The notes beneath the pieces are model-generated. The model worked only from the letters and a program-made list of their open reading frames with translations. It had not been told where the DNA came from and did not search any database. Source: Paracoccus stylophorae (GTDB taxonomy: Bacteria; Pseudomonadota; Alphaproteobacteria; Rhodobacterales; Rhodobacteraceae). From it: a stretch of 64,000 nt of DNA. The position numbers were made by a program, and so were the translations under genes. The stretch covers positions 88,501 through 152,500 of the forward strand of contig NZ_CP067134.1 of the NCBI RefSeq assembly GCF_028553765.1, in the 5' to 3' direction. This document shows positions 21,234-55,172 of the stretch, one piece after another (the first letter of the stretch is position 1; each line of letters starts with the position of its first letter).

Positions 21234-22051
21234 CCGACATCGCCTTTCCGCCGCGCGCCTGGGCGGTGGCGTTCACCGGCATCACCCGGCGCGAGACGCT
21301 GCGTTTCGTCAATCAGCGCGGCCGGTTTCTGGCCGCGCTGGTGCGTCCGCTGGTCTGGCTGTTCATCTTCGCCGCCGGGTTCCGCGCCATCCTGGGCCTG
21401 TCGATCACGCCGCCCTATCAGACCTATGTGCTGTACGAGGTCTACGTGACGCCCGGACTGTGCGCGATGATCCAGCTGTTCAACGGCATGCAATCGTCGC
21501 TGTCGATGGTCTATGACCGCGAAACCGGGGCGATGCGGACCCTGCTGGTCAGCCCGTTTCCGCGCTGGTTCCTGCTGGCCGCGAAACTGGTCGCGGGCGT
21601 CTTCGTGTCGCTGATCCAGGTCTATACGTTTCTGGCGATCGCATGGTTCTGGGACGTGCGGCCGCCGGTCTGGGGCTATCTGGCGGTGCTGCCGGCGCTG
21701 ATCCTGTCGGGGCTGATGCTGGGGGCGATGGGGCTGTTCCTGTCCTCGGCCATCCGCCAGCTGGAAAATTTCGCCGGGGTGATGAACTTCGTGATCTTCC
21801 CGATGTTCTTCGCGTCCTCGGCGCTGTATCCGCTGTGGCGGATGCGCGAAAGCTCGACCCTGCTGCACGACATCTGCGCCATCAATCCCTTTACCCACGC
21901 CGTCGAACTGATCCGCTTCGCGCTGTATCTTCAGGTGAACTGGCTGTCGCTGGCGGTGGTGGCGGGGTGTCTGGCGGCGTTTTTCGGCGGCGCGGTCTTG
22001 ATGTACGATCCCGCCAAGGGGCTGTGGACCCGCAGAAAGGGGGCAAGATGA
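21230..22051 (+). CDS. ABC-2 type permease, PQQ-dependent alcohol dehydrogenase system
   Basis: 273 residues. About six membrane segments, with the ABC-2 family blocks QLFNGMQSSLSMVYDRETGAMRTLLVSPFPRWFLLAAK and FPMFFASSALYPLW. ABC-2 permeases normally export, which sits oddly with the periplasmic binding protein in the same operon. It overlaps both neighbours by 4 nt. Confidence 0.92.
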   Translation: MTDIAFPPRAWAVAFTGITRRETLRFVNQRGRFLAALVRPLVWLFIFAAGFRAILGLSITPPYQTYVLYEVYVTPGLCAMIQLFNGMQSSLSMVYDRETGAMRTLLVSPFPRWFLLAAKLVAGVFVSLIQVYTFLAIAWFWDVRPPVWGYLAVLPALILSGLMLGAMGLFLSSAIRQLENFAGVMNFVIFPMFFASSALYPLWRMRESSTLLHDICAINPFTHAVELIRFALYLQVNWLSLAVVAGCLAAFFGGAVLMYDPAKGLWTRRKGAR

Positions 22052-22641
22052 GACCGATCCTTGCGCTGATCGCCGCGCTGGCGGCCGGCCCGGCCCTTGC
22101 GGCCGGCGGCACCGATCCCGAATGGCCCTGCGTCCAGGTGCTGCAACCGCATCTGTCGCTGGGCCAGATCTGGGCCGGTCCGGTGCCCGACGACCGCACC
22201 GCCGACCTGGCCCGCGATCCGCAGATCGCGGCGCTGGCGCAGCGGCTGGAACAGCGCCGCCTGCCCATCGAGGATGCCGAGGCCGCGATTGCCGATTTCG
22301 CAGCCGATGCCGACAACGCCCGGCTGACCGCGCTGATGCAGGCGATCTTCGACCGGATTCAGCCCGACCGCAGCGCCCTGATCGCCGGCATCGCCCGATA
22401 CGGTCGCCAGCAGGTCGATCTGGCCCGCCGGATCGAGGATCGGCGCGCCCGCATCGACCGGCTGATGGCGCAAGACAGCCCCGATTTCGACGCCGTCGAC
22501 GCCGAGGAAAAGGCGCTGGACTGGGACGAACGCATCTTCACCGAACGCCAGCAATCGCTGACCTATGTCTGCGAAACCCCGGTGATCCTGGAACAGCGCG
22601 CCTTCGCGCTGGCCCGCGCCATCGCCAGCCATCTGGACTGA
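22048..22641 (+). CDS. secreted helical protein of the ABC/XoxF region, unknown function
   Basis: 197 residues, signal peptide ending PALA near residue 18. The mature part is almost entirely helical and charged, with two cysteines, C28 and C175, that could form a disulphide. No family with known function is recognised. The 4-nt overlap with the permease gene suggests a stoichiometric partner of the ABC system in the periplasm. It is the last gene of the methylotrophy run; a GC-rich inverted repeat (TCGCGG at 22642-22647 with CCGCGA at 22659-22664) follows. Confidence 0.75.
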   Translation: MRPILALIAALAAGPALAAGGTDPEWPCVQVLQPHLSLGQIWAGPVPDDRTADLARDPQIAALAQRLEQRRLPIEDAEAAIADFAADADNARLTALMQAIFDRIQPDRSALIAGIARYGRQQVDLARRIEDRRARIDRLMAQDSPDFDAVDAEEKALDWDERIFTERQQSLTYVCETPVILEQRAFALARAIASHLD

Positions 22642-22753
22642 TCGCGGGGCCGCGCGCGCCGCGAAATCGGCGCGGCGGGCTTGATCGGCGCGCGGTTTCC
22701 GCCCAAGGATCGTGAGGCCGGGCCACGCGCGGCGCGAAAACAGGGGGGATGGA

Positions 22754-23659
22754 ATGGTCGCGATCATCGGTGCCGAGGCAGAGGACCGTCTGGACTGGCT
22801 TGCCCTGACCGACGCGCTGGCCCACGGCCACACCCTGCCCATGGCCGAGGTGGCCGACAGCTTTCTTTATCGCGGCGAGGATACGTTGCTGACCCGGTCG
22901 GCCTGGATCGACGGGCTGGGGCTTGCGATCAAGCCGGCGACGGTGTTTCCCGGCAACCCCCGCGCCGGCCTGCCGATGGTGAACGGCGCGGTGACGCTGC
23001 TTGACGACCGGACCGGCCAGCTTCAGGCGCTGGTCGATTTCCATCTGGTGACCCGCTGGAAGACCGCCGGCGACAGCCTGCTGTCGGCGCGGCGTCTGGC
23101 GCGACCCGATGCGCGGCAGGCGCTGATCGTGGGGGCGGGCAAGGTCGCCGCCTCGATGGTGCTGGCCTATCGCGCGGCTTTCCCCGACATCCGCATCGCC
23201 ATCTGGAACCGCACCGCCAGCGCCGCCGCCGATCTGGCCGCCCGCATGAACGCCGAGGCCACGCAGGATCTGCCGGAGGCCGTGGCTGCCGCCGACCTGA
23301 TCGCCACCACCACCATGGCGCGCGACCCCGTGATCCGCGGCGCATGGCTGAAACCCGGCACGCATCTGGACCTGATCGGCGCCTATCGCCCCGACATGCG
23401 CGAGGTGGACGACGAGGCCCTGCGCCGCGCCCGCCTGTTCGTGGACAGCCGCAAGACCACCATCGGCCATATCGGAGAGATCCAGATCCCGCTGGACCAA
23501 GGCGTCATCGCCGAATCCGACATTCTGGCCGATTTCTACGATCTGGCCTCGGGCGCCTATGCGCGCCTCTCGGATGACGAGATCACCATCGCCAAGAACG
23601 GCGGCGGCGCGCATCTGGACCTGATGACCGCGCGCTATATCCTTGATGCGGCCGCCTAA
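22754..23659 (+). CDS. ornithine cyclodeaminase / mu-crystallin family protein
   Basis: 301 residues from the ATG at 22754, just after AGGGGGG. The NAD-binding loop ALIVGAGKVAASM lies near residue 127, and the HVV-type family blocks (DFHLVTRWKTAGDSLLSARRLARPD, HLDLIGAYRPDMREVDDEAL) are clear. Members include ornithine cyclodeaminase, alanine dehydrogenase and pyrroline-2-carboxylate reductase; which one this is cannot be decided. Its stop overlaps the convergent Na/Pi transporter gene by 4 bp. Confidence 0.85.
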   Translation: MVAIIGAEAEDRLDWLALTDALAHGHTLPMAEVADSFLYRGEDTLLTRSAWIDGLGLAIKPATVFPGNPRAGLPMVNGAVTLLDDRTGQLQALVDFHLVTRWKTAGDSLLSARRLARPDARQALIVGAGKVAASMVLAYRAAFPDIRIAIWNRTASAAADLAARMNAEATQDLPEAVAAADLIATTTMARDPVIRGAWLKPGTHLDLIGAYRPDMREVDDEALRRARLFVDSRKTTIGHIGEIQIPLDQGVIAESDILADFYDLASGAYARLSDDEITIAKNGGGAHLDLMTARYILDAAA

Positions 23660-25284
23660 CCCTCGCGCAGGCGGCTTTCGACCAGCAGACCCTCCTCGTC
23701 CAGAATCGGATGCGCCACCGCCACGACATGGGCGTTGATCCGTTTCAGGTCGCGCAGCATGTCGAGGTGCAGCGACGAGGTGTCGTGCGATTCCTCGCGC
23801 CCCTCGCGCAGGCGGATCAGGTGGCGCTGGGCCGACTGGCGCTCGACATTGCGGATGTCGATCTTGGCCTCCATCAGGCGGCGGGCCAGATCGCGGTCGC
23901 GGGTCATGAAGACGGTCTGCGCCATGCGCAGGTTTTCCTGCGTCATCAGGAACATCCGGTCCAGCTCGGCATACCCCTCGTCCGAGAACCACAGCCCCAG
24001 CCCGATCTTCTTGCGCACCTCGGGCGCCAGGTTGCGGTCGATGATGTCGCCGATATGTTCCAGATTGATCACGTAATCCAGAATCGTGATCGACCGGCGC
24101 TTGTCCTCTTCGCTGGCCTCGCGGCCCAGACGCGACAGATACGACTTGACCTGATGCTGCCTTCGGTCGACGCGCTTTTCCTGCGCCGCGACCTCGGCCA
24201 GCGGGGCGGGGTCGTTGCTTTGAAAGGCGTCGCGCGTCTGGTTCAGCATCCGCTCGATCGCGTCGCCGATGGCCAGCGCCTCGCGGCTGGCCCCGGCCAG
24301 CGCCAGCGGCGGCGTCTCCAGCGCGCTTTCGTCCAGCCATTGCGGCGCCATGTCGTCGGGCAGATCCTCGATCGGCAGCATGCGCGCCACCAGCCGCGTC
24401 ACCAGCCCGGTAAAGGGCCAGATCGTCGCCGCCAGCGCGATGTTGAACAGAAGATGCGCCTCGACCGCCAGATCGGTGCGCGGAAACGGCAGCATCCCGA
24501 TGGCCTCGCCCGCCGGCCCGGCCAGCGGCAGCACCGCCAGACAGCCGATGGCGCGCACCACCAGATTGCCCACCGTCAGCCGCCGCGCCGCGACCGAGGA
24601 ACGCAGCGTCGCCAGAACCGGCGGCACCGCCCCGCCCAGATTGGCGCCCAGCACCAGCACGATGGTCAGCCCCGGCCCGACCCCAAGCGTCAGGATCAGC
24701 AGCACCGCGGCCAGCGACGACGAACAGATCACCGCCAGCCCGGCGGCAAACAGCATCGCGACCGGCCAGGCATCGTCCAGCATGGCCAGAAACGCGGCCA
24801 TCGCGGGCGCGTTGCGCAGCGGCTCGGTCGCCACCGACAGCAGCGTCAGCGAAATCAGCATCAGCCCGATGCCGATCAGCGCCCTGCCGCTGCCCGACAT
24901 CGAGGCGCGCGGCTGGCGCGCCAGAACATAGCCGACAAACAGCAGCCCCGGCGCGATCGCCTCGATCCCCGCCGACACGATCAGCGCGGTCAGCGCGGTG
25001 CCCACATTCGCGCCCAGCAACGCGATCTGCGCCATGCGCGCCCGGATCATGCCGCGTTCCACGAAGGACGCGGTCATCAGCGCCGTCGCGGTCGAACTTT
25101 GCAGCCCCAGCGTCGCGATCAGCCCCGACAGGAAGGCGCGCGGCCCGGTGCGCGTCCCCAGACCCAGGGCCGTCTTTAGCTTGACGCCGAAGGCATCGGT
25201 CATGCCGTCCCTGACCAGCCGCAGCCCGAACAGCAACAGCGCCACCGCGCCTGCAAGCTGAAAAAAGACCGTCAGCGACCCCAA
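23656..25284 (-). CDS. Na/phosphate cotransporter family protein with C-terminal PhoU-like domain
   Basis: 542 residues. The first ~330 hold the two inverted Na/Pi-cotransporter repeats (GLQSSTATALMTASFVERG and the later GANLGGAVPPVLATL). Residues after ~340 form a helical PhoU-like cytoplasmic domain (INLEHIGDIIDRNLAPEV). The family takes up phosphate with sodium, or exports it in the YjbB case. No ATG fits; TTG at 25284 is the only plausible start, and a start further down would cut the first membrane helix. The message may be longer than annotated. Confidence 0.88.
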   Translation of the reverse strand: MGSLTVFFQLAGAVALLLFGLRLVRDGMTDAFGVKLKTALGLGTRTGPRAFLSGLIATLGLQSSTATALMTASFVERGMIRARMAQIALLGANVGTALTALIVSAGIEAIAPGLLFVGYVLARQPRASMSGSGRALIGIGLMLISLTLLSVATEPLRNAPAMAAFLAMLDDAWPVAMLFAAGLAVICSSSLAAVLLILTLGVGPGLTIVLVLGANLGGAVPPVLATLRSSVAARRLTVGNLVVRAIGCLAVLPLAGPAGEAIGMLPFPRTDLAVEAHLLFNIALAATIWPFTGLVTRLVARMLPIEDLPDDMAPQWLDESALETPPLALAGASREALAIGDAIERMLNQTRDAFQSNDPAPLAEVAAQEKRVDRRQHQVKSYLSRLGREASEEDKRRSITILDYVINLEHIGDIIDRNLAPEVRKKIGLGLWFSDEGYAELDRMFLMTQENLRMAQTVFMTRDRDLARRLMEAKIDIRNVERQSAQRHLIRLREGREESHDTSSLHLDMLRDLKRINAHVVAVAHPILDEEGLLVESRLREG

Positions 25285-25431
25285 TTCCCGCGCGCCCCCC
25301 TCATCCGTGACATCCGATTTTTGACTGAAAAGTCCAAATAAAAGGTGAACACGGATCCCGCAAAGTCAAGGGCTTCGTCCCGGCGGCGCGGATCTGCCGG
25401 GCCGCTTGGCCCCCGCGCCAGCGGCGCAGGC

Positions 25432-26124
25432 TCAGCGGCGCGGGCGGCTGGGCGCGGTCCAGGGCCGGATCTCGGCCTCCATCCAGGTGCCGTGGGCGGC
25501 GTTGGGAAACATGATCCAGTCGTCGCCGAAGCGGTCGGCATGTTCCTCGGCCAGGCGGTGCTGATCGTCCAGCCCGACCCCCGCAAAGGCGCCGTGGAAA
25601 TCATGCAGCGTGTCGCCCAGTTGCAGGATGATGCGGTGGTCGCGTTCGATGGCGGCGCGGCGTTCGGCCTTGGGCGGGCCGAACAGCTGCACGTGATCGG
25701 CGCTGACCTGCGGCAGGTTCAGCCGCGACAGCGTGGCGATGGTCGCCAGCTTGTTTTCGTTGAAACGGTCCGAGACATAGAAAATCGTCACCCCCAGACG
25801 GTCGGCCAGATCGAAGAAATCGGCCGCGCCGGGGATCAGGTGCGGATCGCCCTCGCGTTCCCATAATTTCCAGGTTTCGACATTGTCGCCCTGATGGGTC
25901 ATGGCGTGGGCCATGATCGCGGTGTTGTCCAGGATCGTCTCGTCGATGTCGCTGACCACGGCCAGACCGGCGCCGCGACCGCCCGCCGCATCCACCGCCG
26001 CGCGCAGCCGCAGCGTCGCCAGCGCATAGCACTGGCGTTGCAGCATCCGCACCTCGGCCGAACGCTGCTGGTAACGGATCGCCATGGCATGTTCGCGCGG
26101 GTGGCGCCGGATCGTGTCGCTCAT
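25432..26124 (-). CDS. HAD-superfamily acid phosphatase, lipoprotein e(P4)-like, without signal peptide
   Basis: 230 residues. The HAD nucleophile motif is D59-I-D61-ET, with the later motifs YVSDR and LGDTLHDF. It is strongly similar to the next gene upstream (26187-26960) through nearly the whole length (RYQQRSAEVRMLQRQCY versus RFQQQSAEIRALQRQAF). Unlike that paralogue it has no signal peptide, so it should be cytoplasmic. The likely activity is non-specific phosphomonoester hydrolysis. Confidence 0.85.
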   Translation of the reverse strand: MSDTIRRHPREHAMAIRYQQRSAEVRMLQRQCYALATLRLRAAVDAAGGRGAGLAVVSDIDETILDNTAIMAHAMTHQGDNVETWKLWEREGDPHLIPGAADFFDLADRLGVTIFYVSDRFNENKLATIATLSRLNLPQVSADHVQLFGPPKAERRAAIERDHRIILQLGDTLHDFHGAFAGVGLDDQHRLAEEHADRFGDDWIMFPNAAHGTWMEAEIRPWTAPSRPRR

Positions 26125-26186
26125 CAGGGGTCCTTCATGCTGCGCGGCGGACGCTAGGGCCGCCGCGCGAAAAGGTCAAACCGCGC

Positions 26187-26960
26187 CTATTCCCACGGCT
26201 CGATCACCGGCTCGGCCTGCCATTCGGTCAGCGTTGCATCCGACCACGTCCCGTAAGAGGCGTTGGGCAGCACGATCCACATATCGCCCCATTTCGCCGC
26301 CTCCTCGTCCACGGTCGCCTTCTGATCCTCCAGCGGGGTCTTGCGGAACCGCCCGTCGAAATCGTGCAGCGTGTCGCCCAGCAACAGCACGATCTGGTGA
26401 TCCTGCGCGACCAGGTCGCGACGCTCGGTCTTGGGCGGGCCCAGCAGCAGCACCGATTCCTCGCTGACCTGCGGCAGGCCCAGTTCGCTCAGCGTGTCCA
26501 GCGTATGCTGTTTCTGCTGGTCCGAGCGGTCCGAGACATAGCGGATCGTCACCCCCAGCCCGTCGGCATGGTCCAGAAACTCCCTGGCCCCCGGCACCAG
26601 CGTCGGATCGCCGTCGCGTTCCCAGGGCAGCCAGGTGTCCCAGACGTCATACATGTGACAATCGGCCAGATCGCGCGCCAGAAGCGCGCTGTTGTCGATC
26701 ACCGTCTCGTCCAGATCGGTGACGACGGCCAGTTTCGCGGGATCGTCCGCACCCTCGACCGCCGCATCCAGCCGCATCGTGGCCAGGTTGAAGGCCTGAC
26801 GTTGCAGGGCGCGGATCTCGGCCGATTGCTGCTGAAAGCGCAGGCCCATGGAGAATTCCGCGACCGCGCAGTCGTCGGCGGGCGCGGCGCTGTCCTGCGC
26901 AAGGGCGGGGCCGGCCAGCAACAGCGCGGGCAGCGCCAGCATCGCGTGGCGATAGATCAT
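26187..26960 (-). CDS. periplasmic HAD-superfamily acid phosphatase, lipoprotein e(P4)-like
   Basis: 257 residues from the ATG at 26960, preceded on the minus strand by AAAGGA. A signal peptide ends near residue 21 (LAGPALA), without a lipobox. Motifs: D82-L-D84-ET nucleophile, YVSDRSDQQ, LLGPPKTER and LLGDTLHDFDGRF. It is expected to dephosphorylate nucleotides or other phosphate esters in the periplasm. It lies 62 bp upstream of its signal-less paralogue and probably shares a transcript. The open frame continuing to 27707 is antisense-frame sequence through lolA. Confidence 0.88.
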   Translation of the reverse strand: MIYRHAMLALPALLLAGPALAQDSAAPADDCAVAEFSMGLRFQQQSAEIRALQRQAFNLATMRLDAAVEGADDPAKLAVVTDLDETVIDNSALLARDLADCHMYDVWDTWLPWERDGDPTLVPGAREFLDHADGLGVTIRYVSDRSDQQKQHTLDTLSELGLPQVSEESVLLLGPPKTERRDLVAQDHQIVLLLGDTLHDFDGRFRKTPLEDQKATVDEEAAKWGDMWIVLPNASYGTWSDATLTEWQAEPVIEPWE

Positions 26961-27082
26961 GTTCGGGTCCTTTCGATTCGGTTGCGTCCGCGGCCCTGCG
27001 GCCGCGACGCCCGCCATGTTGGCGCAGCGCGCGCGCCAAGTCACGCGGCGACCGGCACCGCCCGCCCGCCTTCGCGCGACCC

Positions 27083-27685
27083 TCAGCGCAGGACGAATTT
27101 CGAATCCGGGATCGCGCCGCCCTTGCGCATCTCGCCCAGGATCACCGTGGTCTTCTGGCCGGCATCGTCGGTGACGACCCACTGGCGCAGCTCGGTCGGG
27201 CTGGTAAAGACCATCTGGATATTGCCGTATTCCGGATGCGCCGGGTCCTGCGCCGTCACCACGGTGGAATTCTTCGCCTCGGTATATCCCGTCACCATGT
27301 TGGCGCGTCCCAGATCGACATTGCGCGCCAGGATGATCGACAGCGGCGTTTTCGACAGCGGATAGCTTTGCGGCCCGCCATTCGACTTGGGATCGACGAT
27401 GGTGACATTCCCGCCCGAGGCGACGACCAGCGTCTTGTCGTTGTTGTATTCGAACCGCACTCGTCCGGGCCGGCGGATATAGACCGTCCCGGTCGAGATC
27501 GTGCCATCCGGGTTCACCTGCGTGAATTCGGCCGTGACCGTGGTCAGGCTGTTCAGATAGCGCGAAATCTCGTTCAGCGGGATCTTGGCGGCCAGGGCCG
27601 GAACGGCAAGGCCGAGGCTGAGGACAAGGGCGGCGGCGGGCGCGAAGGCGAAGATGCGTCTGTTCATGGTCGCGATCATATCCAT
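27083..27685 (-). CDS. lolA: outer-membrane lipoprotein carrier protein LolA family
   Basis: 200 residues, or 194 from a second ATG at 27667 (MNRRIF), which gives a cleaner signal peptide; neither has a clear ribosome site. The mature protein has the LolA pattern: TTVTAEFTQVNPDGTISTGTVYIRRPGRVRFEY, then a C-terminal beta sheet. LolA shuttles lipoproteins across the periplasm. ftsK, the usual alphaproteobacterial neighbour of lolA, is not beside it here. It is divergent from the MFS gene. Confidence 0.88.
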   Translation of the reverse strand: MDMIATMNRRIFAFAPAAALVLSLGLAVPALAAKIPLNEISRYLNSLTTVTAEFTQVNPDGTISTGTVYIRRPGRVRFEYNNDKTLVVASGGNVTIVDPKSNGGPQSYPLSKTPLSIILARNVDLGRANMVTGYTEAKNSTVVTAQDPAHPEYGNIQMVFTSPTELRQWVVTDDAGQKTTVILGEMRKGGAIPDSKFVLR

Positions 27686-27860
27686 TTCGTTTGCCGGTGC
27701 ACATCACGTCTGGCGGATGGCACCGGGCGCGAACGCTCGCGGCTTCGTGACGGTTCCGGCGGTGGCGTCCCCCGCGCCGCGATCCGCAAAACCTGCTTGG
27801 TGATCGCCGCCATGCCGGCTAAGCAGCAGATCGAGGGGCGAACCGCAAGGGGACAGTGCG

Positions 27861-29177
27861 ATGCAGATGACCGTGGACGAGGCGCTGGCGCGCGGCGGAA
27901 CCGGCCGGTTCCAGTGGCGGCTTCTGGGCATCTTCGGGCTGGTCTGGGCGGCCGATGCGATGCAGGTCATCGCCGTGGGCTTTGCCGCGCCCTCGGTCGC
28001 CGCCACGTTCGGGATCGAGCGTGTGACCGCCTTCCAGATCGGCACCGTGTTCTTTCTGGGCATGTTCGTCGGCGCCTGGGGCTTCGGGCGTCTGGCCGAC
28101 CGGGTGGGCCGGCGCAACCTGCTGATCCTGACCGTGGCGATGGACGCGGTCTTCGGCCTCGCCTCGGTCTTTGCGCAGGATTTCACCTGGCTTCTGGTGC
28201 TGCGCTTTTTGACCGGCGCGGCGGTCGGCGGCACGCTGCCCGTCGATTACGCGATGATGGCCGAATTCCTGCCGCCCCGGAACCGCGGCCGCTGGCTGGT
28301 CTGGCTTGAAGGCTTCTGGGCCGTCGGCACCATCGTCATCGCCCTGACCGCCTGGATCGCCGCCGCCAACGGCGCGGTCGCGCCCTGGCGCTGGATCTTC
28401 GCCATCGCGGCCCTGCCCGCGCTGATCGGGATCTTCCTGCGCATCTGGGTGCCCGAATCGCCGATGTATCTGGTCCGCAAGGGCCGCACCGATCAGGCGC
28501 ACAAGGTCCTTGACCGGGTGCTGGCCGCGAACGGCGCGCAGGCCCTGCCGCGCGATGTGACGCTGATCCCCGCGCCGGTGCCCGCCGGGGCGGAAACCTC
28601 GATCTTCGCGCCGATGCTGCGCAGCCGCACCATCGGCGTGCTGGCCGTGTGGTTCCTGGTCTCGCTGTCCTATTACGGCGTGTTCGTCTGGGTGCCGGGC
28701 CAGCTTGCGACCGAAGGCTTCGGCTTCGTGCGCGGCTATGGCTTTCTGGTGATCCTGGCGCTGGCGCAGATCCCCGGCTATGCGCTGGCCGCCTGGGGGG
28801 TCGAGGCGCTGGGCCGGCGCACGACGCTGATGGGGTTTTTGATCCTCAGCGCGGCGGGCTGTTTCCTGTTCACCGTGGCCTCGGGCACCGCGATGGTTGC
28901 CAGCGCCCTGATGCTGATGAGCTTTTCGTTGCTGGGCACATGGGGCGCGCTTTATGCCTTTACCCCCGAACTCTACCCCACCCATCTGCGCGGCACCGGC
29001 ATGGGCACGGCCAGCGCGATGGCGCGTCTGGGCGGGATTCTGGCGCCCAGCATGCTGGCCCTGGTCTTCGCGCGCGGTTTCGGCTTTGCCATCGGCGTCT
29101 TCGCGGTGCTGCTGCTGCTGGCGGCGGCGGCGCTGCTGCTGGTCCGGGCCGAAACCCGCGATCAGGCCATCGGCTGA
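27861..29177 (+). CDS. MFS transporter (sugar/aromatic-acid porter type)
   Basis: 438 residues with twelve predicted membrane segments. Family signatures are GRLADRVGRRNLL between helices 2 and 3, PRNRGRWLVWLEGFW, and a matching WGVEALGRRTTLM in the second half. It resembles the SV2/niacin or aromatic-acid:H+ symporter group; substrate unknown. Neighbours give no further hint. Confidence 0.88.
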   Translation: MQMTVDEALARGGTGRFQWRLLGIFGLVWAADAMQVIAVGFAAPSVAATFGIERVTAFQIGTVFFLGMFVGAWGFGRLADRVGRRNLLILTVAMDAVFGLASVFAQDFTWLLVLRFLTGAAVGGTLPVDYAMMAEFLPPRNRGRWLVWLEGFWAVGTIVIALTAWIAAANGAVAPWRWIFAIAALPALIGIFLRIWVPESPMYLVRKGRTDQAHKVLDRVLAANGAQALPRDVTLIPAPVPAGAETSIFAPMLRSRTIGVLAVWFLVSLSYYGVFVWVPGQLATEGFGFVRGYGFLVILALAQIPGYALAAWGVEALGRRTTLMGFLILSAAGCFLFTVASGTAMVASALMLMSFSLLGTWGALYAFTPELYPTHLRGTGMGTASAMARLGGILAPSMLALVFARGFGFAIGVFAVLLLLAAAALLLVRAETRDQAIG

Positions 29178-29230
29178 ACGAAACCGCAACCCGCCCCGCC
29201 CCGTTGGGCTGAAAACACAGGAGGAAAAAC

Positions 29231-30205
29231 ATGGGTCAACTGGTCGATGGCGTCTGGAAGGACGAATGGTACGACACCGACAGCCATGGCGGCGAATTCG
29301 TCCGCGACACCTCGAAATTCCGCAATTGGGTCACCGCTGACGGCACCCCCGGCCCGACCGGCGAAGGCGGGTTTAGGGCCGAAAGCGGGCGTTACCATCT
29401 TTACGTCTCGTATGCCTGCCCGTGGGCGCATCGGGCGCTGATCTTCCGGGCGCTGAAGGATCTTCAGGACCATATCGGCGTCTCGGCCGTCCATCCCGAC
29501 ATGCTGAACGAAGGGTGGGAGTTTCGCGAGGACTTCCCCGGCGCGACCGGCGACCGGCTGTTTGACAGCGACTTCATGCGCGACATCTATCTGCGCGCCA
29601 ATCCCCGCGCCTCGGGCCGCGTGACCGTGCCGGTGCTGTGGGACCGCGAACGCGACACCATCGTGTCGAACGAAAGCGCCGATCTGATCCGCATGTTCAA
29701 CCGGGCCTTCGACGGCATCACCGGAAACACCGACGATTACCGGCCCGACCACCTGCAGGACGACATCGACAAGGTGAACGACCGGATCTACGACACCGTC
29801 AATAACGGCGTCTACAAGGCCGGTTTCGCCACCACCCAATCGGCCTATGACAAGGCGGTCGGGCCGCTGTTCGACAGTCTGGACTGGATCGAGGGGCTGC
29901 TGGCCCGCACCCGCTATCTGACCGGGGACACCATCACCGAGGCCGACTGGCGCCTGTTCACCACCGTCGTCCGGTTCGATTCGGTCTATCACACGCATTT
30001 CAAATGCAACCGCCGCCGCATCGTCGATTACCCCAATCTGTGGGGCTGGGCGCGCGAACTGTATCAGTGGCCCGGCGTCGCCCCGACCGTGCGGCCCGAC
30101 CACTATGTCCGCCACTATTACTACAGCCACAAGACGGTGAACCCGCACCGGATCATCCCCATCGGACCCGATGAGGACTGGACCGCCCCGCATGGCCGCG
30201 CCTAG
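29231..30205 (+). CDS. glutathionyl-hydroquinone reductase (YqjG/PcpF/ECM4 family)
   Basis: 324 residues. It is an omega-class-like glutathione transferase that reduces glutathionyl-hydroquinones to hydroquinones. The catalytic cysteine is C63 in YACPWAHR. Other family blocks are SNESADLIRMFN and DSVYHTHFKCN. CAGGAGG precedes the ATG. It appears to be a single-gene unit. Confidence 0.92.
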   Translation: MGQLVDGVWKDEWYDTDSHGGEFVRDTSKFRNWVTADGTPGPTGEGGFRAESGRYHLYVSYACPWAHRALIFRALKDLQDHIGVSAVHPDMLNEGWEFREDFPGATGDRLFDSDFMRDIYLRANPRASGRVTVPVLWDRERDTIVSNESADLIRMFNRAFDGITGNTDDYRPDHLQDDIDKVNDRIYDTVNNGVYKAGFATTQSAYDKAVGPLFDSLDWIEGLLARTRYLTGDTITEADWRLFTTVVRFDSVYHTHFKCNRRRIVDYPNLWGWARELYQWPGVAPTVRPDHYVRHYYYSHKTVNPHRIIPIGPDEDWTAPHGRA

Positions 30206-30253
30206 GGGCGGCGCGTCCTGACCCCGCCCGACCCCTCGTCAGAAAGCCGCCGC

Positions 30254-31228
30254 ATGGCACACCGCCACGACCACAGCCACGATCATTCCCACGGGCCGAC
30301 GCTGTCGCGCGATGCCCCCATCGCCGAACAGCGGTCCAAGGAACGGGCCATCGCCATCGCCGCCGGGCTGACCGGGCTGTTCATGGGGGCCGAGGTGGTC
30401 GGCGGCATCGTGTCGGGCAGTCTGGCGCTGCTGGCCGATGCCGGGCACATGCTGACCGATTTCGCCTCGCTGGTGCTGGCGTGGCTGGCCTTTCGGCTGG
30501 CGCGGCGTCCGGCCGACTGGAAACGGACCTACGGCTTCGACCGCTTTTCGGTTCTGGCCGCCTTCGTGAACGGCATCAGCCTGCTGGCCATCGCCGCCTG
30601 GATCACGATCGAGGCGATCCGGCGCCTGCGCGACCCGTCCGAGGTGCTGGGCGGGCTGATGCTGTGGGTGGCCATCGCCGGGCTGGCCGTGAACATCGCC
30701 GCCTTCTGGGTGCTGTCGCGGGCCGAGGGCGACAATCTCAACGTCCGCGCCGCCGCCCTGCATGTGCTGGGCGACCTGCTGGGCTCGGTCGCGGCCATCG
30801 TCGCGTCCCTGATCATCATCTGGACCGGCTGGACGCCCATCGACCCGATCCTGTCGGTGTTCGTGGTCCTGCTGATCCTGCGCTCGGCCGTGTCGGTGGT
30901 GCGCGAAAGCGGCCATATCCTGCTGGAGGGTGCGCCCCACGGCTTCGACGCCTCGGCCATCGCCGCCGATCTGGAACAGACCGTGCCGGGCGTGCTGCGC
31001 GCCCACCACATCCACGCCTGGTCGATCACCCAGGAACGCCCCATGGCCACGTTGGAGGTCGATCTGGCGCCCGGCTCGGACGCCGAGCGCGTGCGCCGTC
31101 AGGTCAAGTCGCGCGTGGCCCAGATCGCCCGCATCGACCACGTGACGGTCGAGGTGTCCGAAGAGGCCGAGGGGGCGCATGACCACGACCCCGATTGTGG
31201 CACGCCGGCGGACCGCCCCGAACCCTAA
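30254..31228 (+). CDS. cation diffusion facilitator (CzcD/ZitB-like zinc exporter)
   Basis: 324 residues. The N terminus is His/Asp rich (HRHDHSHDHSHG), followed by six membrane helices. The metal sites of helices 2 and 5 are visible as HMLTDFASL and HVLGDLLGS, and a C-terminal cytoplasmic domain contains HHIHAWSIT. Proton-coupled export of Zn2+ or a related ion is expected. The stop is followed almost at once by the dispersed iteron element (31231-31348). Confidence 0.93.
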   Translation: MAHRHDHSHDHSHGPTLSRDAPIAEQRSKERAIAIAAGLTGLFMGAEVVGGIVSGSLALLADAGHMLTDFASLVLAWLAFRLARRPADWKRTYGFDRFSVLAAFVNGISLLAIAAWITIEAIRRLRDPSEVLGGLMLWVAIAGLAVNIAAFWVLSRAEGDNLNVRAAALHVLGDLLGSVAAIVASLIIIWTGWTPIDPILSVFVVLLILRSAVSVVRESGHILLEGAPHGFDASAIAADLEQTVPGVLRAHHIHAWSITQERPMATLEVDLAPGSDAERVRRQVKSRVAQIARIDHVTVEVSEEAEGAHDHDPDCGTPADRPEP

Positions 31229-31230
31229 GG

Positions 31231-31348
31231 GCAACGCCCGCAACCGGTGTACGCCCTGTGCACGCGCTGTGCATCACGGGTGCACGGCGTGTGACACGCC
31301 CCGCCCTGCATTTGCTGGGCCCTCGCCCCCCTCCGGCCCCGGCGTTGC
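31231..31348. repeat. dispersed iteron element, copy 1
   Basis: Bounded by GCAACGCC (31231-31238) and its exact inverse GGCGTTGC (31341-31348). Inside are CGCCCGCAA (31235-31243), five consecutive 11-bp units each beginning GTG (31247-31301; first two GTGTACGCCCT and GTGCACGCGCT), and GCATTTGCTGG at 31308-31318. A second copy with the same internal spacing is at 53268-53393. It lies between the convergent CDF and response-regulator genes. The whole 31229-31570 gap holds this element, further GTTGC/GCAAC short palindromes and the terminator hairpin at 31395-31417; no gene was found in it. Confidence 0.7.
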
Positions 31349-31389
31349 ACCGCGCAACGCCCGCAGCCGTTGCGCAACACCCACAAACG

Positions 31390-31418
31390 CGAAACCCCGG
31401 CGCGGGAAACGCCGGGGC
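31390..31418 (-). terminator. terminator of the response-regulator gene
   Basis: CCCCGGCG (31395-31402) and CGCCGGGG (31410-31417) form an 8-bp stem with a 7-nt loop. On the minus strand the stem is followed by TTTCGCGTTT, so it reads as an intrinsic terminator about 155 nt after the stop of the gene at 31571. Confidence 0.6.
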
Positions 31419-31570
31419 ATCAGAGAGAGAGGGTGTGACCGCATCCGCCGGCCACTGGGCTTCGCCGGTGTAACGCGGCAATCCCGGCCCGGTTCCCGCC
31501 ATTTTCCGGCCATTCCCCATGCGCGGAAAATCGCCTCCCGGGCCGGTATTGCAGGGCCTGCGCCCCGGCT

Positions 31571-32257
31571 TCAGGCGACCAGCCGATAGCCGCCCGATTC
31601 CGTCACCAGCAGACGCGCATTCGACGGGTCCGGCTCGATCTTCTGGCGCAGCCGATAGATATGCGTCTCCAGCGTGTGCGTCGTCACCCCGGCATTATAG
31701 CCCCACACCTCGTGCAGCAGCACGTCGCGCGGCACCACCCCGTCCTGAGCGCGGTACAGGAATTTCAGGATGTTGGTCTCCTTCTCGGTCAGCCGGATCT
31801 TCTTGTCCTTCTGATCGACCAGCATCTTCATCGACGGCTTGAACGTATACGGCCCAAGCTGAAAGATCGCGTCCTCGGACTGTTCATGCGTGCGCAGCTG
31901 CGCCCGCAGCCGGGCCAGCAGGACCGGGAACTTGAACGGCTTGGTCACGTAATCATTGGCCCCCGCATCCAGCCCCAAGATCGTGTCGGCATCGGTGTCG
32001 TGCCCGGTCAGCATCACGATCGGACATTTCACGTTCAGCTTGCGCAGCTTCTTGCACAATTCGCGCCCGTCCGTATCGGGCAGCCCCACATCCAGGATCA
32101 CCAGATCGTAGATGGCGTTCTTCGTCGCCTCGACCGCCTCGGCGCCGGTGCCGGCCTCGACCACGTCGAAGTCGTCCGTCGCGACCAGCTGCTCGGCCAG
32201 CGCCTCGCGCAGATCGTCCTCGTCATCCACCAGCAGGATCTTTTTCAGTCCGGCCAT
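31571..32257 (-). CDS. OmpR/PhoB-family response regulator, possibly CenR
   Basis: 228 residues. An N-terminal receiver domain has the acidic pair in LLVDDEDD, the phosphoacceptor in VILDVGLPD and the [12 protein letters not shown] block. A C-terminal winged helix carries [12 protein letters not shown] and [19 protein letters not shown]. The high conservation of the linker and C terminus ([18 protein letters not shown] and ESGGYRLVA) recalls the essential alphaproteobacterial regulator CenR, but identity is not certain. No histidine kinase is adjacent, so this is an orphan gene. Convergent with the CDF gene, divergent from ribA. Confidence 0.88.
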
Positions 32258-32392
32258 GCTTGCCTCCTATGCCTCGGTTGCGCAAATGAGTGGGCCTGCG
32301 CCGCCCCGCAGTCCAGCGCCATGTCGAAAATCTCACATGGAGTTGTCGGAAAAAGCCACTATGTTTCAGTTTGTTTCAATCGGACCCGACAG

Positions 32393-33451
32393 ATGAGCCT
32401 GATCCCGACCCTTGCCGAAACCGTCTCGCGCGCCCGCGCCGATCTGCGCATGGGCCTGCCGGTGATGATCGGCGGCCATCTGGCGGCGGCGGTCGAGACG
32501 CTGTCGGCGACCCGGCTGGCCGACATGCTGCGACTGGGCCGGCCGGTGCTGGCGATCACCGAACGCCGGGCCGAAACGCTGAAGGCGCGCGCCTATGACG
32601 ACGGGCTGGCCCGCGTCAGGCTGCCGCCGGATGCCGATCTGGCATGGCTGCGCGCGCTGGCCGATCCGGCCAACGATCTGATGACGCCGCTGAAGGGGCC
32701 GCTGTTCACCGACCGCGACGGCGACGCGACCCCGCACATGGCCGCGCTGGCACTGGCCAAATCGGCGCAGCTTCTGCCGGCGATGCTGGTCGTGCCGGCC
32801 CGTGCGCCCGCCGGGCTGACGGTGCTGGCGCCGGGACAGGTGCTGGCGCAGCTTGCGGGCGAGGCGGCGCTGGCCCCCGTCGCCGCCGCGCGCCTGCCGC
32901 TGATGTCGGCCGAACGGTCGCGGCTGCACATCTTCCGCCCCGACGACGGCGCGGCCGAACATTACGCCATCGAGATCGGCGATCCGCCGCGCGACCGACC
33001 CGTGCTGGCGCGGCTGCATTCGGCCTGTTTCACCGGCGACGTGCTGGGCAGCCTGAAATGCGATTGCGGCCCGCAACTGCACGCCGCGTTGCAGGCGATG
33101 GGCCAGGGGGGCGACGGCGTGCTGCTGTATCTGAACCAGGAGGGGCGCGGCATCGGGCTGGCCAACAAGATGCGCGCCTATGACCTGCAGAACCAGGGTT
33201 TCGACACGGTCGAGGCCAATCACCGCCTGGGGTTCGAGGATGACGAGCGTGACTTTCGCATCGGCGCCGCCCTGCTGAAGCGGATGGGCTTTGCGCAGGC
33301 GCGGCTGCTGACGAACAATCCGCGCAAGGTGCAGATGCTGGAAACACACGGCATCGAGGTGGTCGAACGCGTGCCGCTGATCGTCCCGCGCAACCGCTTC
33401 AACACCGGCTATCTGGACACCAAGGCCGCGAAGTCGGGCCATCTGCTGTGA
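32393..33451 (+). CDS. ribA: GTP cyclohydrolase II (riboflavin synthesis)
   Basis: 352 residues. The C-terminal ~190 residues are a complete GTP cyclohydrolase II with zinc ligands in [15 protein letters not shown] (C-x10-C-x-C) and the [10 protein letters not shown] catalytic block. The N-terminal ~150 residues occupy the place of a DHBP-synthase domain but lack its recognisable active-site motifs. It converts GTP to the first riboflavin intermediate. The ribosome site before the ATG is weak. The stop overlaps the next gene's GTG. Confidence 0.9.
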
Positions 33452-33966
33452 CCCCCGACGATCTGGTCCTGACCCCGCAGGGCATCCGATACCGTGGCCG
33501 GGTGTTTGCGTGCAGCATCGGCAAGGGCGGGCTCAGCGCGGCCAAGCGCGAGGGCGACGGGGCCACGCCCACCGGCCGCCACCGGATCACCGGCTTGTGG
33601 TATCGGCCCGACCGGCTGCCCCCGCCCGCCCCCTGGGCCCGGCCCATCGGCCCGTCCGATCTGTGGTGCGACGATCCGGCCCATGCCGCCTATAATCGCC
33701 ATGTCCGCGCGCCGCTGCGCGCCAGCCATGAGGCCTTGCGCCGCGCCGATCCGCTGTATGACGTGATCCTGACGACCGACTGGAACTGGCCCGATGCGGA
33801 GCCGGGGCGCGGCTCGGCCATCTTCCTGCATCAATGGCGCAGGCCGGGTTTCGGCACCGAAGGATGCATCGCATTTGCCCGCGCCGATCTGATCCGGATC
33901 GCCGCCCGCGCGGCCCCCGGCACGCGGCTGATCGTGCCGGCTTCTTCTTTGTCCAAATACCCGTAA
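33448..33966 (+). CDS. L,D-transpeptidase family protein (YkuD domain)
   Basis: 172 residues from a GTG that overlaps the ribA stop (GTGA). The YkuD active-site block is intact: [18 protein letters not shown], with the conserved His and catalytic Cys. Members crosslink or attach proteins to peptidoglycan. No signal peptide is seen, which is unusual for a periplasmic enzyme, though the short DUF-type members often lack one. Confidence 0.85.
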
Positions 33967-33975
33967 CGCAACGCA

Positions 33976-34629
33976 TCAGCCCGCGTCGCGGGCGCCGAAG
34001 ATGGCCGAGCCGATGCGGACATGGGTCGCACCCTCGGCGATGGCGGTCTCGAAATCGGCGCTCATCCCCATCGACAGCAGGTCCAGCCCGTTGTCCCCGG
34101 CCAACCGGCGCAGCAGGCGGAAATGCGGCACCGGATCGGCATCCTCGGGCGGGATGCACATCAGCCCCTGCGGGCTCAGCCCCAGGTCGCGGCACTGGTC
34201 CAGAAAGCCGGGCAGCTCATCCGCCAGGATGCCGGCCTTCTGCGGCTCGTCCCCGGTGTTGATCTGGATGAACAGCTGCGGGGTTCGGCCCTGTTCGGCG
34301 ATCTGGTGGGCCAGCTTGCGGGCAAGGCTGATCCGGTCCAGCGTGTGAATGGCGTCGAACAGCTCGACCGCCGCCTTGGCCTTGTTTGATTGCAGAGGCC
34401 CGATCATGTGAACCGACACGCCCGCGAAGCGCTGGCGCCAGTCGGGCCATTTGCCCTGCGCCTCTTGCACGTAATTCTCGCCGAAGGTCCGGTGGCCCGC
34501 GTCCAGAACGGCCGTTACGCGTTCGGCGGGTTGCACCTTGCTGACCGCGATCAGCGTGACCGACCCGGCCTCGCGTCCGGCGGCGCGTTCTGCCGCGGCG
34601 ATGCGGCTTTTGATGTGATCCAGTTCCAT
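33976..34629 (-). CDS. YggS/PROSC family pyridoxal-phosphate homeostasis protein
   Basis: 217 residues from the ATG at 34629; an upstream frame extension was dropped because it runs through the porin terminator. The PLP lysine lies in LIAVSKVQP, followed by [21 protein letters not shown] and the late [13 protein letters not shown]. It binds PLP as a carrier rather than as an enzyme. It is transcribed in the same direction as the porin upstream but is separated from it by a terminator. Confidence 0.93.
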
Positions 34630-47747: not shown

Positions 47748-48613
47748 TACAGCGTCTCTCCCTCTTTGGTCATCACGGTATAGAAGACGAACGAGATCAG
47801 CAGGATCACGAGGAAATAGATCAGGCTGAACGCCGCCGCGGGGCCAAGGTCGAACTGGCCGACCGCCATCTTCACAAGGTCGATGGACAGGAAGGTGGTG
47901 GCATTGCCCGGTCCGCCGCCGGTGACGACGAAGGGTTCGGTATAGATCATGAAACTGTCCATGAAGCGCAGCAGCACCGCGATCAGCAGCACGCCCTGCA
48001 TCTTGGGCAGCTCGATATAGCGGAACACCTTCCAGCGCGACGCCTGATCGATCCGTGCGGCCTGATAATAGGCGTCGGGGATGGATTGCAGCCCGGCATA
48101 GCACAGCAGCGCGACGAGGCTGGTCCAGTGCCAGACATCCATCACGATCACCGTGACCCAGGCGTCGATGGGATCGTTGACATAGTTATAGTCGATGCCC
48201 AGCCTGGTCAGCGCATAGCCCAGAAGCCCGATATCGACGCGGCCGAAGACCTGCCAGATCGTGCCGACCACGTTCCACGGAATCAGCAGCGGCAGGGCCA
48301 TCACGACCAGGCAGAACGATGCCCACGCGCCCTTGCGCGGCATGTTCAGCGCCACGAAGATGCCCAGCGGGATCTCGATCGCCAGGATGATGGCCGAGAA
48401 CAGGATCTGGCGGCCCAAAGCGGCGCGGACGCGGTCGGAATGGATCGTCTCGCGGAACCATTCCAGCCCGGCCCAGAAGAACTGGTTGCCGCCGAACGTG
48501 TCCTGGATCGAATAGTTCACGACCGTCATCAGCGGCAGCACGGCCGAGAACGCGACCAGCGCCAGCACCGGCAGCACCAGAAACCAGGCGCGATTGTTCA
48601 GTGGCTTGTCCAT
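47747..48613 (-). CDS. glpP: glycerol ABC transporter permease GlpP
   Basis: 288 residues, six membrane segments, MalF-type EAA loop (YAGLQSIPDAYYQAARIDQASRWKVFRYIELPKM). Partner of GlpQ. The start overlaps the glpT stop by one base. Confidence 0.9.
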   Translation of the reverse strand: MDKPLNNRAWFLVLPVLALVAFSAVLPLMTVVNYSIQDTFGGNQFFWAGLEWFRETIHSDRVRAALGRQILFSAIILAIEIPLGIFVALNMPRKGAWASFCLVVMALPLLIPWNVVGTIWQVFGRVDIGLLGYALTRLGIDYNYVNDPIDAWVTVIVMDVWHWTSLVALLCYAGLQSIPDAYYQAARIDQASRWKVFRYIELPKMQGVLLIAVLLRFMDSFMIYTEPFVVTGGGPGNATTFLSIDLVKMAVGQFDLGPAAAFSLIYFLVILLISFVFYTVMTKEGETL

Positions 48614-49704
48614 CAGGCGGCCCTTTCCTGCGTGGCCGGCTGCGCGCGCCAGTCATCGACATAGACATGGGTGTGGGCGGGGTCGGGAATGACGCGGTCC
48701 GCATCAGCCGGGATCGGCTGGCCCTCGGGCACGATCACGTTGACCTCTGCGCCCGCGACCTCGCCGCGCACGATCCGGTGGTGGCCTACATCCTCGATCC
48801 GCCGGACCGCAAAGGGCAGCCCCGGACCGCCCTGACCGAGGCGCAGGAACTCGGGCCGGATGCCGATCTGCGTGCGACCCTGCAGCGCGCCATAGCCGCG
48901 ATCCAGCGCGATGCGCGTGCCTGCGACATGCGCGGTGGCGCCGTCGATTTTCGCGTCCAGCAGGTTCATGCCGGGCGAGCCGATGAAATAGCCGACGAAC
49001 GTGTGTTCGGGCGCGTCGAACAGCGCCTGCGGCGTGCCGGCCTGCACCACCCGCCCGTCATACATCACCACGACCTGATCGGCGAAGGTCAGCGCCTCGG
49101 TCTGGTCGTGGGTGACATAGATCATCGTGTGCCCGAACCGGCGATGCAGGTCCTTCAGCTGCGTGCGCAGTTCCCATTTCATGTGCGGGTCGATCACCGT
49201 CAGCGGCTCGTCGAACAGGATCGCGTTCACGTCCTGCCGCACCATGCCGCGGCCCAGGCTGATCTTCTGCTTGGCGTCCGCCGTCAGCCCGCGGGCGCGG
49301 CGGTCCAGCACCTCGGTCATGCCGATCATCTCGGCCACCTCGGACACGCGTGCGGCGATCACATCCGCCGCCAGCCCGCGATTCTTCAGCGGAAAGGCCA
49401 GGTTCTCGCGCACCGACATGGTGTCGTAGACGACCGGGAACTGGAACACCTGCGCGATGTCGCGCTGCGCCGTGGGCAGGTCGGTCACGTCCCTGTCCCC
49501 GAACAGCACCCGCCCCTGCGAGGGCACCAGCAGCCCCGAGATGATGTTCAGCAGCGTCGATTTCCCGCAGCCCGACGACCCCAGCAGCGCATAGGCGCCC
49601 CCGTCCTGCCAGGTCAGCGTCATCGGCTTCAGCGCCCAGTCCTCGGGCCCCGCCGGCTGGGGAAGATAGCTGTGGGCCAGGTTCTCAAGCGTGATCTGGG
49701 TCAT
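48613..49704 (-). CDS. glpT: glycerol ABC transporter ATP-binding protein GlpT
   Basis: 363 residues. Walker A GSSGCGKST at 42-50 and Walker B ILFDEP at 162-167 are intact, but the signature motif is degenerate: LTADAKQKISLGRG at about 140-153 in place of LSGGQ. It pairs with GlpS, which has the canonical signature, so the ABC dimer is asymmetric. A C-terminal TOBE-like regulatory domain follows. Confidence 0.9.
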   Translation of the reverse strand: MTQITLENLAHSYLPQPAGPEDWALKPMTLTWQDGGAYALLGSSGCGKSTLLNIISGLLVPSQGRVLFGDRDVTDLPTAQRDIAQVFQFPVVYDTMSVRENLAFPLKNRGLAADVIAARVSEVAEMIGMTEVLDRRARGLTADAKQKISLGRGMVRQDVNAILFDEPLTVIDPHMKWELRTQLKDLHRRFGHTMIYVTHDQTEALTFADQVVVMYDGRVVQAGTPQALFDAPEHTFVGYFIGSPGMNLLDAKIDGATAHVAGTRIALDRGYGALQGRTQIGIRPEFLRLGQGGPGLPFAVRRIEDVGHHRIVRGEVAGAEVNVIVPEGQPIPADADRVIPDPAHTHVYVDDWRAQPATQERAA

Positions 49705-49725
49705 GGATCCTCTCCTCGCGCAGGC

Positions 49726-52343: not shown

Positions 52344-52483
52344 GGCGTCTCCCTCGGGTCGGTGTCATCCGATCATGCGGCCCCCGCGCCTGTCAACGGA
52401 AATTTTCGCAAATGCGCGTTTCTATTCGGATTGACAAAAACCGCGCATCGCGGTTCCGTGAAACTCTTTGATGGGGAATGTCG
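52344..52483. promoter_or_regulatory. divergent glpD / glpR control region
   Basis: Two outward-facing TTGACA boxes are present: 52431-52436 on the plus strand toward glpR, and 52391-52396 on the minus strand toward glpD; -10 elements are weak. The 34 bp between them are AT rich for this genome and contain related TTTTCGCAAA and TTTCTATTCG words, a plausible GlpR operator. This is inference. Confidence 0.5.
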
Positions 52484-53245: not shown

Positions 53246-53267
53246 TTCGGCGGAACGGCGTTTCCGC

Positions 53268-53393: not shown

Positions 53394-53430
53394 GCCGTGC
53401 CGCCCTGCAACGCGCGCTGCGCGCCCGCGC

Positions 53431-53781: not shown

Positions 53782-53969
53782 GACCGCCGCCCCGTCAGCA
53801 TTGCGCGGCCTTGCGCGAAGTCGTCGTTCATCGGGGACCCATCAGGCATGTGATTTTCCCGGCCACGATAGGCGCTTTGCCACGGCCTCGCAAATCCCGG
53901 CGACGTTCATTTGTTGCCGCCCGGCCCATCATCGTTATGATCGGACCGCAATCATGTTGGAGGCTTGCC

Positions 53970-55151: not shown

Positions 55152-55172
55152 CCGGCGCGCCGAACGACTCAA

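Follow-up and report, generated by a model that had tools for sequence, protein, structure and literature searches.

In this work, we analyzed a window of 64,000 nucleotides (the whole stretch of DNA under study) from Paracoccus stylophorae, which carries two copies of a structured intergenic element. In our reading, to which we assign a probability of roughly 0.6, this element constitutes a chromosomal binding array for a stand-alone BrnA-type ribbon-helix-helix (RHH) protein encoded elsewhere, and would serve as a fixed architectural anchor. The two copies are members of a family of about 30 intergenic elements scattered in the own genome. The reading is built on these copies, their fixed register and conserved positions, their linkage to the RHH gene, the covariation between residues of the protein and the recognition word, the swaps of that word at the same site, and the association of the arrays with a polar GC skew.

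Structure of the element and its family in the own genome

All features that a first-pass annotation had listed for this DNA (ends, 17-mer, motif at +61 and GTG units) were recovered at their positions. As read from the sequence, copy 1 starts with GCAACGCC at 31231, followed by CGCCCGCAA and the 17-mer GTGTACGCCCTGTGCAC at 31247; its GTG triplets are placed at 31247, 31258, 31269, 31280 and 31291, GCATTTGCTGG stands at 31308 (+61 from the first GTG), and GGCGTTGC occupies 31341-31348. Copy 2 has GCAACGCC at 53268, a 17-mer identical to that of copy 1 at 53290, GTG triplets at 53290, 53301, 53312, 53323 and 53334, GCATTTGCTGG at 53351 (+61), and GCCGTTGC, with one mismatch, at 53386-53393. The five 11-bp GTG-initial units with diverged inner bases are present in both copies as described, and their register is kept family-wide among copies about 65% identical. 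Conversely, the supposed terminal inverted repeats are internal, since the family alignment extends the right end by about 27 bp (GCAACGCnCGCnGCCGTTGCGC), to about 31375 in copy 1 (Table 1). The model of the family described below matched copy 1 with 89.9 bits (E 2.5e-25) and copy 2 at 53274-53427 with 84.7 bits (E 1e-23), GCAACGCC of the latter lying just left of the match. The 17-mer, allowing up to 3 mismatches, was found at 4 places in the window, two further units of the same arrays included, vs 0.15 expected in shuffles.

Table 1. Features of the two arrays and of the adjacent GC-skew stretches in the window.
Feature	Coordinates	Strand	Basis
Copy 1, whole element: left GCAACGCCCGCAA, then five 11-bp units, the dyad, a variable arm and the inverted repeat of the right end	31231..31375	+	own-genome family alignment
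Copy 1, array core GTGTACGCCCT GTGCACGCGCT GTGCATCACGG GTGCACGGCGT GTGACACGCCC	31247..31301	+	sequence; register kept in family
Copy 1, dyad CCTGCATTTGCTGG (family CCnGCAWWTGCTGG)	31305..31318	+	sequence, family alignment
Copy 1, right end GCAACGCCCGCAGCCGTTGC, inverted repeat	31354..31373	+	sequence, family alignment
Copy 2, whole element, right-end CGTTGC lost	53268..53427	+	sequence, family alignment
Copy 2, array core GTGTACGCCCT GTGCACATTTC GTGCCGCCCTT GTGGACGCCAT GTGCAGCCAGA	53290..53344	+	sequence
Copy 2, dyad CCAGCATTTGCTGG	53348..53361	+	sequence
Negative GC-skew stretch up to 2-3 kb right of copy 1 (-0.010 to -0.055 in 4-kb windows)	22001..34000	.	GC skew of window
Negative GC-skew stretch up to 2-3 kb right of copy 2 (-0.049 to -0.080 in 4-kb windows)	48001..56000	.	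GC skew of window

The first-pass annotation had also proposed a genome-wide search for the spaced GTG pattern, and further copies with the 11-bp spacing kept were indeed found: GTGYAC followed by four GTG at 11-bp steps matched 25 times in the own genome, vs 3 times for the reversed pattern, and a sequence-only covariance model built from 19 copies (R1) found 31 places in the 3.63-Mb contig at E<=7e-6, 26 of them scoring at least 69 bits. A BLAST search with copy 1 gave 43 matches at E<=10 and 21 at E<1e-3. The GTG columns are invariant across the 19 aligned copies, and the family consensus reads GCAACGCcCGCAAGCGGTGtACgcgCTGTGCACgcccgGTGCCGCCCCGGTGcAcGcccgGTGCgGCC..AAaCCCaGCATTTGCTGG, about 40 variable bases and then GCAACGCnCGCnGCCGTTGCGC, with four or five 11-letter units in an element. 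Pairwise identity among 20 copies, one truncated copy included, averaged about 65%, with 77% for the best pair, and therefore gave no sign of recent spread.

Both copies of the window lie in convergent gaps, in agreement with the first description: copy 1 between genes for a CDF transporter and an OmpR-type response regulator, and copy 2 between genes for a DeoR-type regulator and a ModE-type domain protein. A promoter and terminator scan at copy 1 gave no match. Tabulation of the convergent share, proposed at the same time, revealed an excess over the background gaps of the sampled genome: the 29 elements scored occupy 12 convergent, 6 divergent and 11 tandem gaps, vs 45, 50 and 327 of 422 gaps (p=5e-5 for the convergent class). 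Array-less gaps of at least 150 bp were convergent in 3/99 cases, a figure to be read with the caveat that the element itself lengthens its gap.

The convergent to divergent ratio was 12:6 in the own genome, 16:7 in other Paracoccus and 12:10 in other genera. With respect to tandem neighbours, array orientation was balanced in the own genome (6:5) and among the other Paracoccus (18:19), and in other genera 24 arrays were co-oriented and 11 opposed. All these figures bear on a classical regulon, in which the RHH protein would be a transcription factor with the arrays as its operators at about 30 genes of metabolism and housekeeping. The convergent excess and the missing orientation to tandem genes within Paracoccus disfavour a simple regulon, whereas the 24:11 ratio of the other genera would suit it, as would the several arrays placed 2-60 bp ahead of gene starts, those that closely precede genes resembling lpdA, chorismate mutase and thiolase in several genera, and the one array in autoregulatory position at the RHH gene. 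We consider such a regulon possible at rather low odds, and favour an architectural role over promoter regulation.

Protein roadblocks, i.e., terminators or insulators at which bound arrays would halt transcription at gene ends, are an improbable explanation in our judgement. They would account for the convergent excess, for the arrays that abut stop codons or extend over them, most of all outside Paracoccus, and for the position in tandem pairs, where the array was nearer the upstream stop than the downstream start in 52/79 cases (6/11, 26/37 and 20/31); however, arrays are also found within the sucB-lpdA region and between divergent genes, and only about 30 gene ends in the own genome carry one. 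A terminus-like site, also suggested in the first pass, does not agree with copies spread round the chromosome. GC skew over 21 sampled segments of the genome was weak and irregular and did not place ori or ter; with a guessed origin, about 18/30 elements (hand count) were oriented in accordance with their replichore. A depletion of arrays round the terminus was an early idea, weakened once the R1 model added more copies.

Conserved positions and distribution among relatives

The gene junctions of 90 loci from eight Paracoccus genomes (30 own and 60 from relatives) were compared; genomes are designated by G-numbers, G000 being the own genome. The gene junction of an own copy was often occupied in other species too (one to three of them); the flanking proteins shared mostly 63-90% identity, and the element had the same orientation in the junction pairs read through. 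Examples, with gene names assigned by eye, are a holC/pepA-like junction (G000, G005, G014 and G016), a murB-like junction (four genomes), and an asd-like junction (four genomes, with a fifth copy one gene further off). Five orthologous copies were aligned between G014 and G019, one pair being identical including nearly all flanks, and the remaining four 73-79% identical with the register kept.

The R1 search detected the family in 18/36 congeneric genomes (own excluded), and gave 0 matches in 24 genomes from other families. A second model, R2, built from 87 copies and scored on at most 25 candidates per genome, was positive in 57/125 Paracoccus genomes, own included, and gave weak, often multiple matches in 19/293 genomes of other genera of the family; five stretches matching in named records were all from Paracoccus. 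A strict pattern requiring three in-register GTGYAC units was patchy in the family's other genera (20/295 genomes), with 1 to 27+29 matches per positive genome, overlapping frames being counted and palindromic words being counted on both strands, and with at most 1 match in the reversed control. This pattern undercounts, since the own genome, whose third unit is usually GTGCCG, scores 0. In a class sample it matched 0/289 genomes, four of these from the own family, and a plasmid search with one copy gave no match. The other-genus loci that we read share the array, and the Paracoccus ends were absent from them. The conserved dyad CCnGCAWWTGCTGG and the right-end inverted repeat were observed in Paracoccus-type elements and not in these other-genus loci; they may bind a second protein.

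These distributions bear on a further suggestion of the first-pass annotation, a small mobile element with terminal inverted repeats, which in its general form would be a selfish element of the MITE, REP/BIME or ERIC-like kind. Its dispersed, intergenic and multi-copy nature and the right-end inverted repeat are what such an element would display, but the 20 compared copies include no recent ones, the same junctions are occupied across species and partly across genera, arrays lacking the Paracoccus ends occur in other genera, the word changes in place, and the supposed repeats are internal; we reject this reading as very improbable. An RNA reading (a family of small RNAs or a structured element), to which the length and intergenic place might point, is rejected as well and has a minimal chance of being correct: the window contains no Rfam match at gathering thresholds, the covariation term of the consensus fold amounts to -0.15 kcal/mol, and 1/20 pairs is compensated.

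The RHH protein and its recognition words

The candidate gene (G000:C1:504615-505139) adjoins one own array and encodes a BrnA-type RHH protein of 175 aa; its counterparts in G014, in G019 and in G220, which belongs to another genus, likewise adjoin arrays. The own protein matches PF14384 (BrnA_antitoxin) with E 2.9e-14, and this family was matched by 33/33 aligned members. Its AlphaFold model was weak (mean pLDDT 63), and no credible PDB structure match was obtained for the predicted model. At E<=1e-20 the gene was present in 46/125 Paracoccus genomes, comprising 33/39 of those with at least 5 R2 matches vs 13/86 of the others (p=8e-14, uncorrected for kinship, as the p-values of this analysis ignore phylogeny). 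Array-rich Paracoccus genomes without a clear RHH gene are G006, G018, G028, G063, G075 and G094, of which G028 alone shows an RHH fragment beside an array; the gene occurs with few arrays in G013, G020, G032, G036, G061, G090, G092, G093, G095, G102, G129, G135 and G137.

Among the RHH loci examined (43 of the 46 Paracoccus gene loci, leaving out G089, G090 and G108), 36/43 have an upstream R2 match (E<=4e-4), which is on the strand opposite to the gene and 65-96 bp from the estimated RHH start, and an upstream array was also observed in other genera. The loci without such a match are those of G013, G015, G036, G061, G102, G135 and G137, with another word in G013 and G102. A profile of the 33 members (E<1e-14) detected the protein in 14/20 other-genus genomes with GTGYAC arrays and in 12/52 array-less ones, several of which have another word; the other 6/20 array-positive genomes gave no match or a best E of 2e-6. 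Neither an operon partner nor a ParM-like gene was found among 13 called neighbours at 8 RHH loci, the neighbours being all on the opposite strand and resembling, by eye, chromosomal housekeeping genes; the upstream neighbour in the own genome is SerB (NCBIfam). With this co-occurrence and linkage, the solo BrnA-type RHH protein is likely the ligand of the arrays.

Three further observations concern the gene itself. At loci L287 and L365, it lies near a CarB-like gene (by eye) in both the own genome and G431, which suggests vertical descent. G408 has three RHH matches in one genome, one paralogue (R-T-C) with GTGCAT units and another beside a GTGYAC array. In G090, G089 and G007 the gene was matched as pieces or a fragment, G090 keeping one array there, and decay of the system is possible in these genomes.

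Residues of the beta-strand covary with the word: R-T-R corresponds to GTGYAC, R-T-A/C to GTGCAT, and K-T-S/N to CCATAC. In a table of 70 RHH loci (43 from Paracoccus and 27 of 30 fetched from other genera), R-T-R was found at 45, of which 36 have at least 2 in-register GTGYAC, 9 have fewer, and none has another word. R-T-A/C was found at 7 loci, 5 with GTGCAT; R-T-M/L at 4, 2 with TGCATGAAC; and K-T-S/N at 2, both with CCATAC. K-T-R/W and H-T-R together account for 7 loci, 4 of which fit a loose CCRGAC/TCCKAC pattern that was chosen after looking at the same data that support it; the five other loci include 1 with GTGYAC. At locus L303 (G149), a Q-T-R strand accompanies a different 11-bp periodic stretch upstream (GAAAGAGTTAT-like), possibly a further recognition word.

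An altered third beta contact (RVTIAL, RVTLM. or RVTILV) was observed in nine of the 13 gene-positive, array-poor genomes, several of which show GTGCAT or TGCATGAAC units at their own RHH gene, and genome-wide TGCAT arrays were predicted beforehand for the altered-contact Paracoccus genomes. Such arrays were found in 11/125 Paracoccus genomes. Those predicted include G020 (16 matches), G129 (16), G032 (11) and G036 (5), the first three, with the most matches, having R-T-A; G013, G095 and G102, also predicted, gave a single match each, which in G095 is located at the RHH gene itself. G090 likewise has one match, at its own broken RHH gene. Unpredicted matches came from G106 (4; RHH pieces only), G134 (2; no RHH match) and G086 (a simple repeat), and the prediction failed in G061 (R-T-A) and G137 (R-T-M), which showed none. 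Similarly, CCATAC arrays were predicted beforehand for G196 and G214, and both are among the 8/295 positive genomes: G214 (63+62), G292 (40+29), G252 (5+11), G196 (4+5), G221 (4+4), G282 (4+3), G263 (2+1) and G432 (1+2). The strand type was read in G196 and G214 only, and none of the eight is among the strict-pattern GTGYAC genomes. The two genome-wide word predictions were largely borne out.

Furthermore, different words occupy the same chromosomal sites, gene names being again assigned by eye. Behind gltD, GTGYAC is found in G000, G347 and G403, GTGCAT in G020, G032, G106, G129 and G134, and TGCATGAAC in G013. The site immediately ahead of chorismate mutase carries GTGYAC in G220 and G431, GTGCAT in G020, G032 and G129, and CCATAC in G196. 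The gap between a small MAPEG-like gene and lpdA holds GTGYAC in G376, G424 and G439 and CCATAC in G196, with GTGYAC immediately before lpdA in G396, an array on the opposite side of lpdA in G333, and GTGYAC two genes away, within the same sucB-lpdA stretch, in the own genome and G023. At a junction with branched-chain ABC transporter genes, the word in G280 and G340 differs from that in G020 and G129, and an arfB/yhhQ-like junction has GTGYAC in G166 vs CCATAC in G196. Genes adjacent to TGCAT arrays matched GTGYAC-adjacent genes in 23/74 cases, several of these representing one site in sister genomes, vs 4/86 for genes 3-5 positions away (p=1e-5); for CCATAC-adjacent genes the figures were 7/41 vs 1/5 in a small control. 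Thus, at the sites seen, the place is kept and the word changes with its reader, and this covariation suggests that protein and recognition word changed together in relatives at the same chromosomal places.

The fixed register, the conserved junctions, the linked RHH gene and the residue/word covariation, all of them sequence evidence, strongly support the first-pass proposal that the array binds protein and has a functional register. From these, we infer physical binding in which one RHH dimer would contact each near-palindromic GTGYAC hexamer through its two-stranded beta-ribbon, and four or five dimers spaced 11 bp apart, nearly on one helix face, would bind cooperatively. The array located about 65-96 bp upstream of the RHH start would probably mediate autorepression, and the approximately 30 other arrays in gene gaps would act as fixed intergenic nucleoprotein anchors of the chromosome, rather than as ordinary promoters. 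The suggestion of a nucleoid-like site stands as the favoured but putative function, based on the convergent excess and on the lack of orientation preference in Paracoccus. The 11-bp head-to-tail spacing had also suggested an array of DnaA boxes, the TTATNCACA-type 9-mers bound by DnaA, the best likeness by eye being CTGTNCACA on the other strand of the units; this candidate was set aside once the RHH/word covariation appeared, since the word changes with the RHH protein.

Polar GC skew and comparison with known systems

On the array strand, GC skew over the whole locus was negative in 27/30 own loci, 56/60 loci of other Paracoccus, 54/66 of other genera (some duplicates) and 21/22 CCATAC loci. 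In 25 own arrays with long flanks, the skew was about -0.03 to -0.05 from -12 kb, reached -0.09 at 0 to +0.75 kb, and was near zero from +1.75 kb; the left flank was negative in 24/25 (one zero), the interval from 0 to +1 kb in 25/25, and the right flank (2-7 kb) was mixed in sign. The skew domains end about 1.5-3 kb right of the arrays, and the same shape was observed in 98 loci of relatives. The signal is located at third codon positions, where A also exceeds T, and is present whichever way the genes are oriented; positions 1 and 2 average near zero. Replichore polarity was set aside as the sole cause because of its misfit with the flat right flank.

RHH proteins are also known to assist relaxosomes and segrosomes, and a polar DNA process, such as unidirectional synthesis, packaging or strand transfer, might start at the arrays and proceed toward the array 5' side. 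The negative skew from about -12 kb to +1.5 kb, its return to near zero, its repetition in relatives, and its presence at third codon positions with a matching A/T sign in both gene orientations would all suit such a process. Against it stand a similar trough without array at 2001-8000 of the window, the weakness of the effect in GTGCAT genomes, and a third-position skew that, in the few loci of sufficient length, stays negative past -16 kb, the left limit not being reached. Array-less gaps showed no effect when oriented by GTG excess (+0.012, 34/82 negative), and a small same-sign effect when oriented by their own skew (-0.015, 54/94 negative). Moreover, local GC-skew peaks of Rhodobacterales, rich in core genes, have already been ascribed to preferred codons with G > C (PMC9836097). 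We consider a process of this kind unlikely. Either the arrays drive such a process, or they are held in one orientation within old strand-biased blocks. Only tentatively, and with the chances against it, do we extend the proposal to an orphaned antitoxin that would read dozens of fixed sites family-wide, with a word rewritten in place and each site bounding a polar, replication-like process over more than 10 kb.

In the literature surveyed (titles and abstract starts, with subscription papers mostly outside), no description of the repeat or of the RHH protein was found, and the switchable word and the polar skew appear to be without earlier description in it. The system offers a natural experiment in which a DNA-binding protein and tens of genomic sites would shift specificity in concert, and the code that relates residues to bases is readable. 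For repeats that are otherwise anonymous in many species, it predicts a binding partner; it may also bear on the Rhodobacterales skew peaks mentioned above, and suggests the recruitment of a toxin-antitoxin RHH fold into chromosome biology.

Several known systems share part of these features. In MatP/matS, Noc/NBS and SlmA/SBS, one DNA-binding protein serves tens of dispersed chromosomal sites, as the putative one would here; their sites are single, short and regionally distributed, in contrast to the 11-bp multi-unit arrays of this family, with a word varying between species. MetJ and omega-type RHH repressors bind as cooperative dimers to tandem short boxes, as predicted here, forming regulatory operators at promoters, whereas the present arrays are in excess between convergent genes. 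The likeness to BrnTA toxin-antitoxin modules lies in the PF14384 match of all aligned members; the present system differs in the missing operon partner at the 8 RHH loci and in the genome-wide arrays. The closeness to ParR/parC of R1-type plasmids lies in an RHH protein with tandem repeats of about 11 bp upstream of its gene: R1 ParR needs at least two 11-bp repeats, and a title in the reference list of the same source speaks of ten direct repeats flanking the promoter (PMC9426499). Unlike parC, the present family has about 30 chromosomal sites, with no ParM-like gene at the 8 loci inspected by eye. CdbA of Myxococcus xanthus is an RHH protein that has more than 500 chromosomal sites, with direct repeats separated by one helical turn; the nucleoid depends on it for its organisation and segregation, and transcription changes are only minor (PMC7156744), a precedent for an RHH protein able to organise the nucleoid. 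The likeness is one of features (an RHH protein, direct repeats at a one-turn spacing, dispersed chromosomal sites), and the present arrays differ in being few, rich in information, composed of 4-5 units and located at conserved places. Taken together, the array system would belong to a known kind, that of a dedicated protein with dispersed chromosomal sites, the dedicated protein being suggested by covariation and linkage.
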